A stretch of 64,000 nt of DNA, from positions 1 to 64,000 of the forward strand of contig CACCLB010000010.1 in assembly GCA_902546725.1 (NCBI GenBank), written 5' to 3'. Of the stretch, positions 11,963-16,141 are shown piece by piece. Origin of the DNA: an uncultured Bacteroidota bacterium. Lineage in GTDB: Bacteria; Bacteroidota; Bacteroidia; Flavobacteriales; Flavobacteriaceae. Made by a program: the position numbers and the translations under genes. The notes under the pieces were generated by a model. It saw only the letters and a program-made list of their open reading frames with translations, was not told where the DNA came from and searched no databases. Each line of letters opens with the position of its first letter. The first letter of the stretch is position 1.

Positions 11963-12492
11963 TGCGCATTATCTCGGGTATCCATAAAGGAAGAAAAATT
12001 GTCGCACCTAAAAAATTACCTGTTAGGCCTACCACAGACCGATCTAAAGAAGCTTTATTCAATATTCTTCAACATCAAATGGACTTCAGTGAATTGAGTG
12101 TACTCGATTTATTTGCAGGTACAGGAAGCATCAGTTATGAATTTGGCTCAAGGGGTGTCGCACAGCTTACTGCCGTCGATAAAAACAGGCACTGCATCCA
12201 ATTCATTCAAAACACTTCAAACGCGCTTTCTTTGGATATTGCAGTGGTTCTTAAAGATTACTTGACCTTTCTAGAAAACGATAAATCCAAATACAGTCTA
12301 ATCTTTGCTGATCCGCCTTATGCATTTGAATTTGATACGTATAAATCATTAGTTGATCTTGCTCAAAAGAGGCTTGACAAGGAGGGACAACTCATCATTG
12401 AACACTTCAATAAAATAGACCTATCTTCTGTGGAAGGATTTGATTACTCTCGGAATTACGGCAGTGCAACTTTTTCATTTTTTAAAGAATAA
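11962..12492 (+). CDS. rsmD: 16S rRNA (guanine(966)-N(2))-methyltransferase
   Basis: RsmD methylates G966 of 16S rRNA using S-adenosylmethionine. The N-terminal MRIISGIHKGRKIVAPK and PTTDRSKEALFNIL blocks are family signatures. The SAM-binding motif is VLDLFAGTGSISYEFGSRG, and the catalytic DPPY motif occurs as FADPPYAFEFD near residue 120. The length of 176 residues is normal. The start codon shares a base with the preceding stop. The RNase P RNA gene lies a few bases downstream on the opposite strand. Confidence 0.95.
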   Translation: MRIISGIHKGRKIVAPKKLPVRPTTDRSKEALFNILQHQMDFSELSVLDLFAGTGSISYEFGSRGVAQLTAVDKNRHCIQFIQNTSNALSLDIAVVLKDYLTFLENDKSKYSLIFADPPYAFEFDTYKSLVDLAQKRLDKEGQLIIEHFNKIDLSSVEGFDYSRNYGSATFSFFKE

Positions 12493-12498
12493 AAAAAT

Positions 12499-12787
12499 GC
12501 AGGCCGGTAAGCCGGATTCTGTCGAGTCTTATCATTTATCTGGATGTAAGATTACTCTTACATTCTAGCCGCCTACCCGTCTACATTGGGCGAGCAACCC
12601 TTAATTGTAGAACTACTTGGCGTTGCACCGCATAGAGTTTACCTGATTTCACTACAGCCGAACTGTACTTGCTTTCTGTTGCACTGGTCCGCTCCGAAAA
12701 CGGAGGGCGGGTGTTACCCGCTATACTGCTCTGTGGTGTCCGGACTTTCCTCTTTTCTCATTAAAGAAAAGCGATAAGATGGCCTGC
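12499..12787 (-). ncRNA. rnpB: RNase P RNA (bacterial class A)
   Basis: This is the catalytic RNA that matures tRNA 5' ends. On the minus strand the 5' region has GAGGAAAGTCCGGAC (12738-12752), the hallmark CR-I region. The 3' region has CTCGACAGAATCCGGCTTA (12509-12527), the equally conserved CR-V end. The terminal P1 helix is formed by GCAGGCC (12781-12787) pairing with GGCCTGC (12499-12505). A run of T follows the 3' side into the rsmD stop region, a possible termination signal. The length of about 290 bases is compact for class A. Ends are set from P1 and may be off by a few bases. Open frames over this interval are not genes. Confidence 0.95.
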
Positions 12788-12863
12788 GGAACAAAGTTAG
12801 CCTTTTGTTGATAATTAACAGGGAATATCTTCCAAGTTACGAATGAATACAAAAACTGATTTT

Positions 12864-12876: not shown

Positions 12877-13974
12877 ATGGAAGCTTTTGTTGTTTCTGCA
12901 CTAAAATACCGTCCTACAACTTTCGAAGAAGTCGTAGGGCAACAAAGTATTACCCAAACCTTAAAAAACAGCTTAGAACAAGACCAATTAGCTCAAGCAC
13001 TGCTTTTTTGTGGACCAAGAGGTGTAGGGAAAACGTCCTGTGCGCGAATACTTGCCAAACAAATCAATAAATCTTCCCAAACCGAGCCTACAGAGGACGA
13101 TTACGCATTCAATATCTTTGAACTTGACGCTGCCTCAAACAATTCAGTAGAAGATATTCGCAAGATCAATGAACAAGTTCGTATTCCTCCACAAGTAGGT
13201 TCACATAAGATTTACATTATTGACGAGGCACATATGCTTTCTAATCAAGCTTTTAATGCTTTTCTAAAAACTCTTGAGGAGCCGCCTAAGCACGTCATCT
13301 TTATTCTTGCAACAACTGAAAAAAACAAAATTATTCCAACCGTTCTGTCCAGATGTCAAGTCTATGATTTTAAGAGAATATCGGTAAGTGATATGCAAAA
13401 CTATCTAGTTAAAATAGCACAGGATAGGAAATTGGAGTTTGAGGAAAGTGCCTTGTATTTAATCGCGCAAAAAGCCGAAGGCGCCCTCCGCGATGCACTT
13501 TCTATTTTTGATCGCATGGTGAGTTTTACTCAAGGAAATTTATCTGCTAAAGCTGTAGCGGATAATCTCAATCTTTTGGATCATCAAACCTATGCTGATT
13601 TAGGGAAAATTATTTTTAAAAATGATATACCAGGGATTTTAAAGGCCTATGATGACCTACTCCAAAGAGGAATTGATCCTTTGCAGTTCATTAAAGGCTT
13701 GGGAGACTTCTTTAGGCATTTGATGCTGGCAAAAGACCCCAATACCTTAGCACTGATGGAACTAGGAGAAGATGTGAAAAAAAACTATCAAGAGGAAACC
13801 GAGCCTTTGTCTATCGACTACCTTCTCGATGCCATTGCTCTTATCAATACCTCTGAGGTAAATTACAAAAGCGTCAACAACAAAAGAGTTCACGTAGAAC
13901 TCGCTCTTATGCAGCTAGCCTCACTCCATTTTAATGGAGAAAAAAAAAAGGCTACATCATCCCAGCCCAACTAG
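12877..13974 (+). CDS. dnaX: DnaX short, gamma-like product (zero frame)
   Basis: Read without a shift, dnaX gives 365 residues: the complete AAA+ domains I-III followed by GEKKKATSSQPN and a TAG stop at 13972-13974. This is comparable to E. coli gamma, which also ends just after the shift site. It would keep clamp-loading ATPase activity but lack the helicase- and polymerase-binding C-terminus. Whether both forms are made depends on the A-run being as written. Confidence 0.65.
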   Translation: MEAFVVSALKYRPTTFEEVVGQQSITQTLKNSLEQDQLAQALLFCGPRGVGKTSCARILAKQINKSSQTEPTEDDYAFNIFELDAASNNSVEDIRKINEQVRIPPQVGSHKIYIIDEAHMLSNQAFNAFLKTLEEPPKHVIFILATTEKNKIIPTVLSRCQVYDFKRISVSDMQNYLVKIAQDRKLEFEESALYLIAQKAEGALRDALSIFDRMVSFTQGNLSAKAVADNLNLLDHQTYADLGKIIFKNDIPGILKAYDDLLQRGIDPLQFIKGLGDFFRHLMLAKDPNTLALMELGEDVKKNYQEETEPLSIDYLLDAIALINTSEVNYKSVNNKRVHVELALMQLASLHFNGEKKKATSSQPN

Positions 13975-14660
13975 CGAATAAAATAGATTCTTCTGGTATA
14001 AAATTGGAAGTAAAGGAAGAACCAATCCCAAAAAAGTACTCTACAAAAGAGAAAAAAGTGGATCTCAAAGAGGCCTTAGGAGTTCAAACTGAGCCCAAGC
14101 CCTATAGCGATTCTGAGGAAACACTCCCGCTAGTTAAAGAGGAAAGACCCCAGAAGTCGTCATCAAAAAAAGTCCCTACTTTGAGTCAAGACAACTTAAA
14201 AAGAGAGGTTTCAGGATTTTCATTGTCTAGTATTGCTTTAAAAAAGGCCGCAAAAAAAGTTAGCAGTCCTGAAGTAGAAGAAGAAAACCTCCCTGAGGAC
14301 TCCTTCAAAAAAGAAACCTTACTAAAGCTATGGAATGAGTATACGGAAAATTTAAAAAAAGAAGGCAAGCAGAATGTCGCCTCCATTATGCAAATGCATA
14401 AGCCCGATTTAATCGAGCAATCTACTGTACAATTTGCTGTAGCAAACGATATGAATAAGGTTGAAATGACCCGTGAAATGGAGCAACTGCTTCCGTTTTT
14501 AAGAGAAAAATTAAACCATTACGGTATCAAAATCAATCTCAACATAACTGAGAACATTAAAGAAGAATCTGTGTTTTCCTCACAAGAAAAATACCAACAT
14601 CTAGTAAAAATCAATCCTGCTTTGGAAACTTTACGTAAAAATTTTGACCTTGAATTTTAA
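12877..14660 (+). CDS. dnaX: DNA polymerase III tau subunit, full-length product needing a -1 frameshift
   Basis: DnaX is the ATPase of the clamp loader that couples polymerases at the fork. Frame 1 encodes the AAA+ part: FVVSALKYRPTTFEEVVGQ, Walker A GPRGVGKTS (residues 46-54), DELDAAS-type sensor region, DEAH (116-119) and SRC (158-160). It stops at 13974. The conserved C-terminal part lies in the -1 frame from 13950 (GYIIPAQLANKI) to 14660, ending in NPALETLRKNFDLEF, a typical flavobacterial tau end. The two join at an A10 run containing A-AAA-AAG in frame, giving a product of about 594 residues. The zinc-binding cysteines seen in E. coli DnaX between residues 60 and 80 are absent. A sequencing error in the A run is the alternative. 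Confidence 0.8.
13940..13950 (+). promoter_or_regulatory. Putative dnaX frameshift/slippage site (A10-G)
   Basis: Ten A residues (13940-13949) then G place the heptamer A-AAA-AAG at 13944-13950, with AAA and AAG as zero-frame codons. This is the same heptamer and phase as the E. coli dnaX shift site, and the run is as long as the Thermus dnaX slippage run. GGAG at 13936-13939 could act as an upstream Shine-Dalgarno-like stimulator, though it is closer than in E. coli. Downstream only a 4-pair stem (GCTA 13951-13954 with TAGC 13972-13975) is visible. Confidence 0.55.
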
Positions 14661-14662
14661 TT

Positions 14663-15247
14663 ATGTTAGGCCTTAAACTCCCTACCGATCCTCTATGGGC
14701 AAATATTGCCAAGAAGAATATTGAAGAAATACTAACCGACCATGCTTATTGCGAGCAAAAAGCAGCCAGTACCGCAATTTCCATGATTATTGGGTTTCCT
14801 CAATTTCCAGAGCTTGTTTCTGCCATGACAGATTTGGCTCAAGAAGAAATGAGTCATTTTAAAATGGTACACGACTTGATTCTTGAAAGAGGACTTGTTC
14901 TGGGACGAGAGCGAAAAGATCCCTATGTCATTCAATTGCGTTCCTTTTTCCCCAAGGGAGGGTCTAAGACAGATCATTTAGTCCACAAGCTACTTTGTGC
15001 AGCATTAATAGAGGCAAGAAGCTGTGAAAGGTTTAGAATTTTATCTGAAGAGTTGGAGGATCCTAAATTGAGAAAATTTTACCGTAAATTGATGATAAGT
15101 GAAGCCAATCACTATACTTTATTTTTAAAGTTTGCAAGAGAATTTGGGAAATCGAGAGAAATAGTAGATCAAAAATGGGAGGCACTACTCGATTACGAAG
15201 CTTCAATTATTAAGACTTTGGGAGACCAGGAGACCATCCACGGCTAA
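14663..15247 (+). CDS. miaE: tRNA-(ms2io6A) hydroxylase-like protein
   Basis: MiaE is a ferritin-like diiron enzyme that hydroxylates the isopentenyl-type modification at A37 of certain tRNAs. LKLPTDPLWANIAKKN and ILTDHAYCEQKAAS open the protein. Diiron ligands are visible in DHAYCEQKAA, in AQEEMSHFKMVHD (an E-x-x-H), in ALIEARSCERF, and in ISEANHYTLF (second E-x-x-H). The length of 194 residues fits. Its last 45 bases overlap the 3' end of the oppositely oriented ppx gene. It follows dnaX by two bases and is probably cotranscribed. Confidence 0.9.
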   Translation: MLGLKLPTDPLWANIAKKNIEEILTDHAYCEQKAASTAISMIIGFPQFPELVSAMTDLAQEEMSHFKMVHDLILERGLVLGRERKDPYVIQLRSFFPKGGSKTDHLVHKLLCAALIEARSCERFRILSEELEDPKLRKFYRKLMISEANHYTLFLKFAREFGKSREIVDQKWEALLDYEASIIKTLGDQETIHG

Positions 15248-16141
15248 CGAATTTGTTTTTTTTTTAGTCTTACACAACTCGCGTATCATTCCATCGGATA
15301 GTCCAACTTTAGGCACATAGACAACTTTTGCCCCCGTCCATTTTAGAGTGCGTAAAAACAGCATGGCTGCAGGTAAAATAACATCTGACCGGTCAGGGTT
15401 TAAACCGTATTGTATAATTCGCTCTTCATAAGTCAATTTACTGAGCTTTGCATAGAGCGCACTCAGGGTTAAATAGGTGATGGGACGACTGTCTTTTATA
15501 CCAGCCATTTTGTGCAATTTGTTGATGTTTCCACCTGTACCGAGTAAATAGACTTTTGAATAGTCTTGAGTATGGGATCTAACCCAGGCTTCAGCTCGCT
15601 TCCAAAGCGCTTCTGTTACCCCATCGTTCAGGAGTCTTACTGTACCAATTTTAAAGGATTTAGAATGAGTTCTTTTTCCGTTTTTAAGAATACTAAACTC
15701 AGTACTTCCACCACCCACATCGACATAGAGAAAGGTTTTGTCCAGCCCTACAGAATCGAATACATTGGTGTTAGAAATAATCTTAGCCTCTTTTTTACCG
15801 TCAATGATATCTATTTTAATTCCAGACTTACTCCAAACCTGTTTAACAACTTTTTTTCCATTTTCTGCCTCTCTCAATGCAGAAGTTGCAAAGGCTAGAT
15901 AATCTTTGACCCCGTGAACTTTCATCAGCATTTTAAAAGCCTTCATTGATTTGATTATACGCTTTTGATTTTTTTTGGAGATGGAGCCGCTGGTGAAGGA
16001 ATCTTCCCCAAGTCGAATAGGAACCCTAACCAAAGCATTTTTCAATATAATTCGCTCCTTTTCGTGATCCACGACATTCGATACCAACATTCTGATGGCA
16101 TTAGAACCAATATCGATTGCTGCGTACTTTCTTATCTTCAT
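15203..16141 (-). CDS. ppx: Ppx/GppA family exopolyphosphatase-like protein
   Basis: This ASKHA-fold phosphatase would release phosphate from polyphosphate or cleave pppGpp. The phosphate-1 motif AAIDIGSNAIRMLVSNV starts at residue 8 and the phosphate-2 motif YVDVGGGSTEFSIL lies near residue 140. LLGTGGNINKL and NPDRSDVILPAAM follow. At 312 residues it is the short form lacking the C-terminal HD-like domain of E. coli Ppx. Its start overlaps the ppk1 stop by 4 bases (ATGA), so synthesis and breakdown of polyphosphate appear to be co-expressed. The 3' end overlaps miaE by 45 bases. Confidence 0.9.
   Translation of the reverse strand: MKIRKYAAIDIGSNAIRMLVSNVVDHEKERIILKNALVRVPIRLGEDSFTSGSISKKNQKRIIKSMKAFKMLMKVHGVKDYLAFATSALREAENGKKVVKQVWSKSGIKIDIIDGKKEAKIISNTNVFDSVGLDKTFLYVDVGGGSTEFSILKNGKRTHSKSFKIGTVRLLNDGVTEALWKRAEAWVRSHTQDYSKVYLLGTGGNINKLHKMAGIKDSRPITYLTLSALYAKLSKLTYEERIIQYGLNPDRSDVILPAAMLFLRTLKWTGAKVVYVPKVGLSDGMIRELCKTKKKTNSLAVDGLLVSQSLNN

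Follow-up and report, generated by a model that had tools for sequence, protein, structure and literature searches.

The dnaX gene of several bacteria gives rise to two clamp-loader subunits, a shorter gamma and a longer tau, and the closest described systems reach these two products by different routes. In Escherichia coli, ribosomal −1 frameshifting takes place at the heptamer A_AAA_AAG, and an SD-like stimulator is located ~10 nt from the slippery site. Whether cells need gamma besides tau has long been debated, chiefly from observations in E. coli. In Thermus thermophilus, the two products depend on transcriptional slippage in a run of nine A residues (A9); passages of PMC5009743 and PMC1088944 describe tau there as a single zero-frame open reading frame (ORF), with slippage leading to the shorter gamma. 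Parts of PMC5009743 also touch on the need for gamma besides tau, and indicate that one change can swap the roles of the products if the efficiency of slippage is near 50%.

A third arrangement was published in 2013. The relevant parts of this study (Antonov et al. 2013, PMC3711429) describe dnaX genes that are split into two ORFs around A10, in which recoding is needed for the longer tau. Its cluster contains 17 split dnaX genes from 12 genera, all requiring a −1 shift, with a poly-A tract in 12 of them (nine A10, and one each of A9, A8, and A7) and none in the other five. Transcriptional realignment is favoured there for the A10 genes, and the dnaX of Chloroherpeton thalassium, with nine A's, is mentioned by name. 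A passage of PMC4066793 repeats the 17 cases with a longer product. The split dnaX with A10 is therefore an established type, of which the gene analysed here is a further member: they share overlapping ORFs, a tau part in the −1 frame, and A10 at the overlap, and relatives of the present organism may be among the published A10 genes. The two sets differ in that all of the 2013 genes are −1, whereas the genes collected here include unsplit ones that also carry the run and fall into three registers. Within the part of the open-licence literature that was covered, by titles and abstracts, no account was found of a class-wide run, of three registers, or of the genus g21 genes described below.

Layout of dnaX in the window

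The window is the whole stretch of DNA analysed here, 64,000 nucleotides in length, and the features of its dnaX gene are collected in Table 1. Near the run, the zero frame reads GGA GAA AAA AAA AAG GCT and the resulting product ends, past domain III, in the tail EKKKATSSQPN. Pfam identifies PF13177, PF22608, and PF12169 in this product, corresponding to the AAA+ ATPase, the lid, and domain III; since all three are present and the domain III match ends at residue 350, it has the appearance of a complete gamma-like subunit. From A10 onward, no stop interrupts the −1 frame before a TAA at 14658–14660, and the ORF of this tail has TTG 14004 as its opening codon. No Pfam family was matched by the −1 piece at E values up to 1. 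By contrast, the NCBIfam model PRK14971.1 (gamma/tau, 614 positions) matches both parts, the zero-frame piece over model positions 1–372 with 528 bits and the −1 piece over positions 401–612 with 80 bits (E = 2.1e-22). Both score below the whole-protein cut-off of 685 bits, as expected for parts of a protein, and the zero-frame piece exceeds the cut-off of TIGR02397 (dnaX_nterm). Judged by its sequence, the −1 piece is the C-terminus of tau, and the predicted peptide across the gamma/tau junction is GEKKKGYIIPAQ.

Table 1. Coordinates of features in and around the A10 run of dnaX, given as positions in the window.
Feature	Position	Strand	Details
dnaX zero-frame ORF, gamma-like	12877–13974	+	365 aa; ATG 12877; Pfam, NCBIfam, translation
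A10 slippery run	13940–13949	+	starts on the second base of a codon: GAA AAA AAA AAG
A_AAA_AAG heptamer, possible ribosomal −1 site	13944–13950	+	zero-frame phase, counted from ATG 12877
Zero-frame stop TAG, gamma end	13972–13974	+	~7 codons past A10
+1-frame stop TAA, also a gamma-like end	13979–13981	+	~10 codons past A10
Tau C-terminal part, −1 frame	13950–14660	+	PRK14971.1 positions 401–612, E 2.1e-22
I-I-P motif, tau frame	13956–13964	+	5′ of every ATG/GTG/TTG in the tail; first TTG 14004

The zero frame, the run, and the −1 tau part up to 14660 had been placed at these same coordinates in the initial annotation, and the PRK14971.1 matches agree with them. Its proposal that one dnaX yields a short gamma-like form and a long tau, with a frame change between them, is likewise supported by the sequence. 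In the window it is the tau frame that needs the frame change, and the shifted product would be tau and not a shorter gamma. This had been likened to Thermus, with which the gene shares a long A run, near off-frame stops, and two products; the likeness does not extend to the identity of the shifted product, as Thermus has its tau in the zero frame and obtains gamma by slippage, whereas here the zero frame stops at 13972 and the roles are reversed. The comparison with E. coli is also a partial one. A_AAA_AAG is present in zero-frame phase and the same two products are predicted, but the window differs in its longer run, in its swapped products, apparently in the distance of its SD-like bases, and in having no clear stem-loop.

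Conservation of the run within the genus

The frame break could be suspected to be a sequencing or assembly error, or to reflect a phase-variable DNA tract, as homopolymers are prone to error and most of the related genomes are draft assemblies. Close relatives, whose run and frame the initial annotation had proposed to align, bear directly on this. The 38 genomes of the genus that were searched contain a full-length dnaX in 32 cases and no full-length match in 6. Every one of these 32 junctions was read; the run is A10 in 31 and A11 in one, so that no full-length relative without a run was found in the genus. The gene is split in 23 of the 32 and forms a single ORF in nine, and the zero and −1 registers of tau are both present inside the genus. 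The retention of A10 or A11 in every full-length gene, together with a split in 23 of them, argues that the break is not a sequencing slip. Split dnaX genes are also found in eight genomes recorded as a single contig (G292, G062, G484, G591, G625, G698, G629, and G521), and the zero frame of all 80 split run-bearing genes in the wider collection stops no more than 7.3 codons from the run. An artefact or a phase-variable tract is thus an exceedingly improbable explanation.

The run across the class Bacteroidia

The wider collection consists of 187 dnaX genes of the class, drawn from the genus, from 397 genomes of the family, and from 296 genomes drawn evenly from the phylum; it is not a random sample, as the best-listed family matches were taken and split genes were favoured. 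The class was taken to be Bacteroidia on the basis of named relatives (Lutibacter, Aquimarina, and a Prevotellaceae MAG). A further 16 genes of genus g21, and loci of named relatives, were kept apart from the 187. A run of 9–14 A residues is found near the junction in 180 of the 187, with lengths of A9 in 8 genes, A10 in 148, A11 in 19, A12 in 2, A13 in 1, and A14 in 2. The seven genes without a run are L114 and L116 (both of genus g21), L125, L201, L202, L258, and L259. The even draw alone gives a similar picture, with a run in 69 of 73 genes, the 73 being every same-class match in that draw. Outside the class, the run is present in 3 of 31 matches (L275, L282, and L290), the matches having been picked in list order rather than randomly; L290 has A9 and a split dnaX. 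Some runs are located farther down the gene (at residue 396 in L210, 398 in L290, and 416 in L345), beyond the initial search range of 165 nt.

In 207 dnaX genes, no run of nine or more A's lies within the first 335 codons (207,162 nt), which speaks against chance as the source of the run at the junction. The tau tails are less clear as a control, as they contain 17 such runs in 113,666 nt (167 tails), occasional runs that can be attributed to the Lys-rich character of the tails. Codon choice at the junction is uniform. For runs of at least ten in phase 1 (127 genes), the codons are GAA AAA AAA, compared with upstream frequencies of 76% AAA among Lys codons and 72% GAA among Glu codons; the chance of such uniformity from each gene's own codon usage is ~10^-52, a value that ignores ancestry and is too extreme. 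In other families, runs persist in differing codon phases and amino-acid contexts.

Registers of tau and stops behind the run

The chromosomal frame of tau, relative to that of the N-terminal part, was assigned by reading the junction of each locus instead of relying on open-frame length alone. Among the 180 run-bearing class genes, tau is in the zero register in 100, in the −1 register in 73, and in the +1 register in 7. The +1 genes belong to six genera, mostly with one assembly each, and for this reason some of them may be errors. A run of at least nine A's is kept in every register.

These registers were placed on a FastTree phylogeny of 192 N-terminal parts, 169 of them run-bearing, which leaves out 11 further loci. 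At least 21 changes of register are needed on the full tree, 18 when branches with support below 90 are collapsed, and 13 when those below 95 are collapsed; the corresponding means over 100 shuffles of the labels are 61, 47, and 36. As the changes are fewer than in the shuffles and yet number around 18–21, the register appears to be inherited but often changed.

Stop codons behind the run are kept alongside it. Of 170 run-bearing genes (168 from the class and two from outside), 161 have both of the frames other than that of tau closed within 10 codons, and 109 have them closed within five, compared with 31% and 12%, respectively, of 50,400 control positions. In the remaining 9 of the 170, the off-tau stops are not near; L210, which is outside that count, has them 13 and 18 codons away and does not fit the pattern. 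Of 88 zero-register genes, 19 have a −1 stop immediately behind the run and 80 have one no more than two codons away. In 39 of them, the +1 frame is closed by the TAA of an ATAAT sequence, mostly formed by codons for I-I-P.

Proposed routes from the run to two products

Taken with the anatomy of the gene, these patterns make recoding of some kind at A10 very likely. We consider that both clamp-loader forms are probably produced from the one dnaX by slippage at A10 that is mainly transcriptional. RNA polymerase would add or drop A's on A10 in a fraction of transcripts. A transcript carrying 10 A's, or three more or fewer, would be translated as far as the stop at 13972 and yield gamma, one carrying 11 (or 8) would continue in the −1 frame to give a tau of ~595 aa, and transcripts in the third frame would end at the stop at 13979 with a second gamma-like end. 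The sequence shows the anatomy, the retained run and stops, and the changes of register; slippage in the cell, its mainly transcriptional nature, and the ratio of the products are inferred. If slippage feeds transcripts into all frames, it would be of little importance which chromosomal frame tau occupies, and this frame would drift, with the run and the off-frame stops being retained. Parts of PMC3711429 set out a distinction that is relevant here: orthologues that keep one direction point to ribosomal frameshifting, and those with a varying direction to transcriptional realignment.

A ribosomal −1 slip on A_AAA_AAG may contribute some of the tau, and it could be proposed that such frameshifting is the main mechanism, as in E. 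coli except that the two products exchange roles, with the long run merely helping. The heptamer, which the initial annotation had described as E. coli-type, is indeed present in the correct phase. Among phase-1 A10 genes, the base after the run is G in 51 of the 53 with tau in −1 but in 18 of the 60 with tau in frame zero, which favours a ribosomal share since this G completes A_AAA_AAG; over independent pairs the association is not significant (four pairs, median p 0.25) and may reflect shared ancestry. The tRNA complement permits slippage on AAG, as the 30 tRNA matches listed, from a genome that is 75% complete, include no Lys type other than tRNA-Lys(UUU), which has two genes. Starting six bases past the run, where the mean z of the genes is −0.44, strong folds (z below −2) are found in 18 of 167 genes compared with 9 of 168 controls, and this modest excess suggests that some dnaX genes may have a stem-loop. 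Furthermore, the genes of genus g21 still require a −1 shift in 18 of 18 cases although they have no run.

Other observations do not conform to a mainly ribosomal mechanism. Folding directly 3′ of the run is near that of the control (mean z −0.34, n = 167, against −0.19, n = 168). In the window, no clear stem-loop is found in the 80 nt downstream (z 0.07), with 50-nt values of −1.47 directly after the run and −0.40 six bases on. The only SD-like bases seen by eye, GGAG at 13936–13939, touch the run, compared with a spacing of ~10 nt in E. coli. Sections of PMC8710568 indicate that ribosomes of F. johnsoniae rarely use SD sequences, while prfB in that organism retains an SD-dependent frameshift. 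A_AAA_AAG is absent in 22 of the 73 −1-register genes, the seven +1-register genes are beyond the reach of a −1 shift, and a run of at least nine is kept in every register though seven bases would suffice for the heptamer. The E. coli label therefore holds for the heptamer itself and less well for the mechanism, given the absence of a clear stem-loop, runs of 9–14, and three registers. A predominantly ribosomal route is an unlikely one in our assessment. Slippage by RNA polymerase is favoured because the direction varies, the run is at least nine in all registers, downstream structure is near the control, and a −1 slip cannot serve the +1 genes.

The gene might alternatively be truly split, with gamma made alone and the tail translated separately from an internal start. 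TTG 14004 could serve as such a start in the window, and in 20 of the 80 split genes no motif was recognised ahead of the first possible start. A short hydrophobic motif such as F-I-I-P does, however, precede any start codon in the other 60, as I-I-P does in the window, which suggests that reading of the tau frame starts at the junction. In 56 of the 80 split genes, the first ATG of the tail is at least 100 codons in, or there is none in the first 150. Sister genes are moreover single ORFs, and separate translation of the tail is very unlikely.

A putative short signal at a stop codon in genus g21

The related genus g21 provides an exception to the presence of the run. Its 22 genomes that were searched have 18 dnaX genes at the cut-off (L114, L116, and L291–L306), and at the junction all 18 lack an A run of length nine or above. 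A TAA (17 genes) or TAG (one) directly after a Lys codon closes the zero frame at 354 residues (353 in L300), and tau continues in the −1 frame in all 18. The bases before the stop are A_AAG or A_AAA in 15 of the 18 and GAG AAA in the other three (L293, L304, and L306), where re-pairing by the Lys tRNA would be poor. In every one of the 18, tau begins with the motif [FY][IL][IL][PS] ahead of any start codon. Downstream folding is mixed, with a mean z of −0.99 compared with −0.47 in the control and values below −2 in 4 of 18 genes.

Termination followed by restart is the less favoured reading of these genes. In all 18, the stop is overlapped in the −1 frame by ATA or GTA and never by ATG or GTG, and frameshifting is favoured on this basis. 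The g21 arrangement looks like a replaced signal, with a putative short −1 recoding site at a stop codon; a published case exists in which a stop directly follows the shift site.

Other features in the window

Upstream of dnaX and on the opposite strand, an RNase P RNA is located at 12492–12790 (RF00010, 202 bits). Downstream, a gene for a MiaE-like tRNA hydroxylase (14663–15247) starts two bases past the tau stop, and because of this spacing its translation may be coupled to that of tau and not of gamma. Two further homopolymers were observed within genes. A T10 on the plus strand at 15256–15265 corresponds to A10 in a minus-strand Ppx/GppA gene (15203–16141), ~17 codons before its stop, and is a possible second slippage site. 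An A9 lies at 2175–2183 inside a GHMP-kinase gene (1925–2854).

Implications for dnaX in Bacteroidia

A more general proposal, towards which we lean with some reserve, is that nearly all dnaX genes of the Bacteroidia are ‘frame-free’. Selection would act on A9–A14 and on stops in two frames, and the chromosomal frame of tau would be nearly neutral, having moved between 0, −1, and +1 about 20 times in the sample as RNA polymerase feeds all frames; in g21, the signal itself would have been swapped. If this is true, the swap in g21 means that selection keeps the output of two products and not one particular signal. For annotators, a split dnaX in these bacteria is not necessarily a pseudogene or a sequencing error. 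The retention of the run and its stops in nearly every dnaX examined, the swapped default product, and the apparently swapped signal of g21 provide comparative evidence for cells needing both forms of the clamp-loader subunit.
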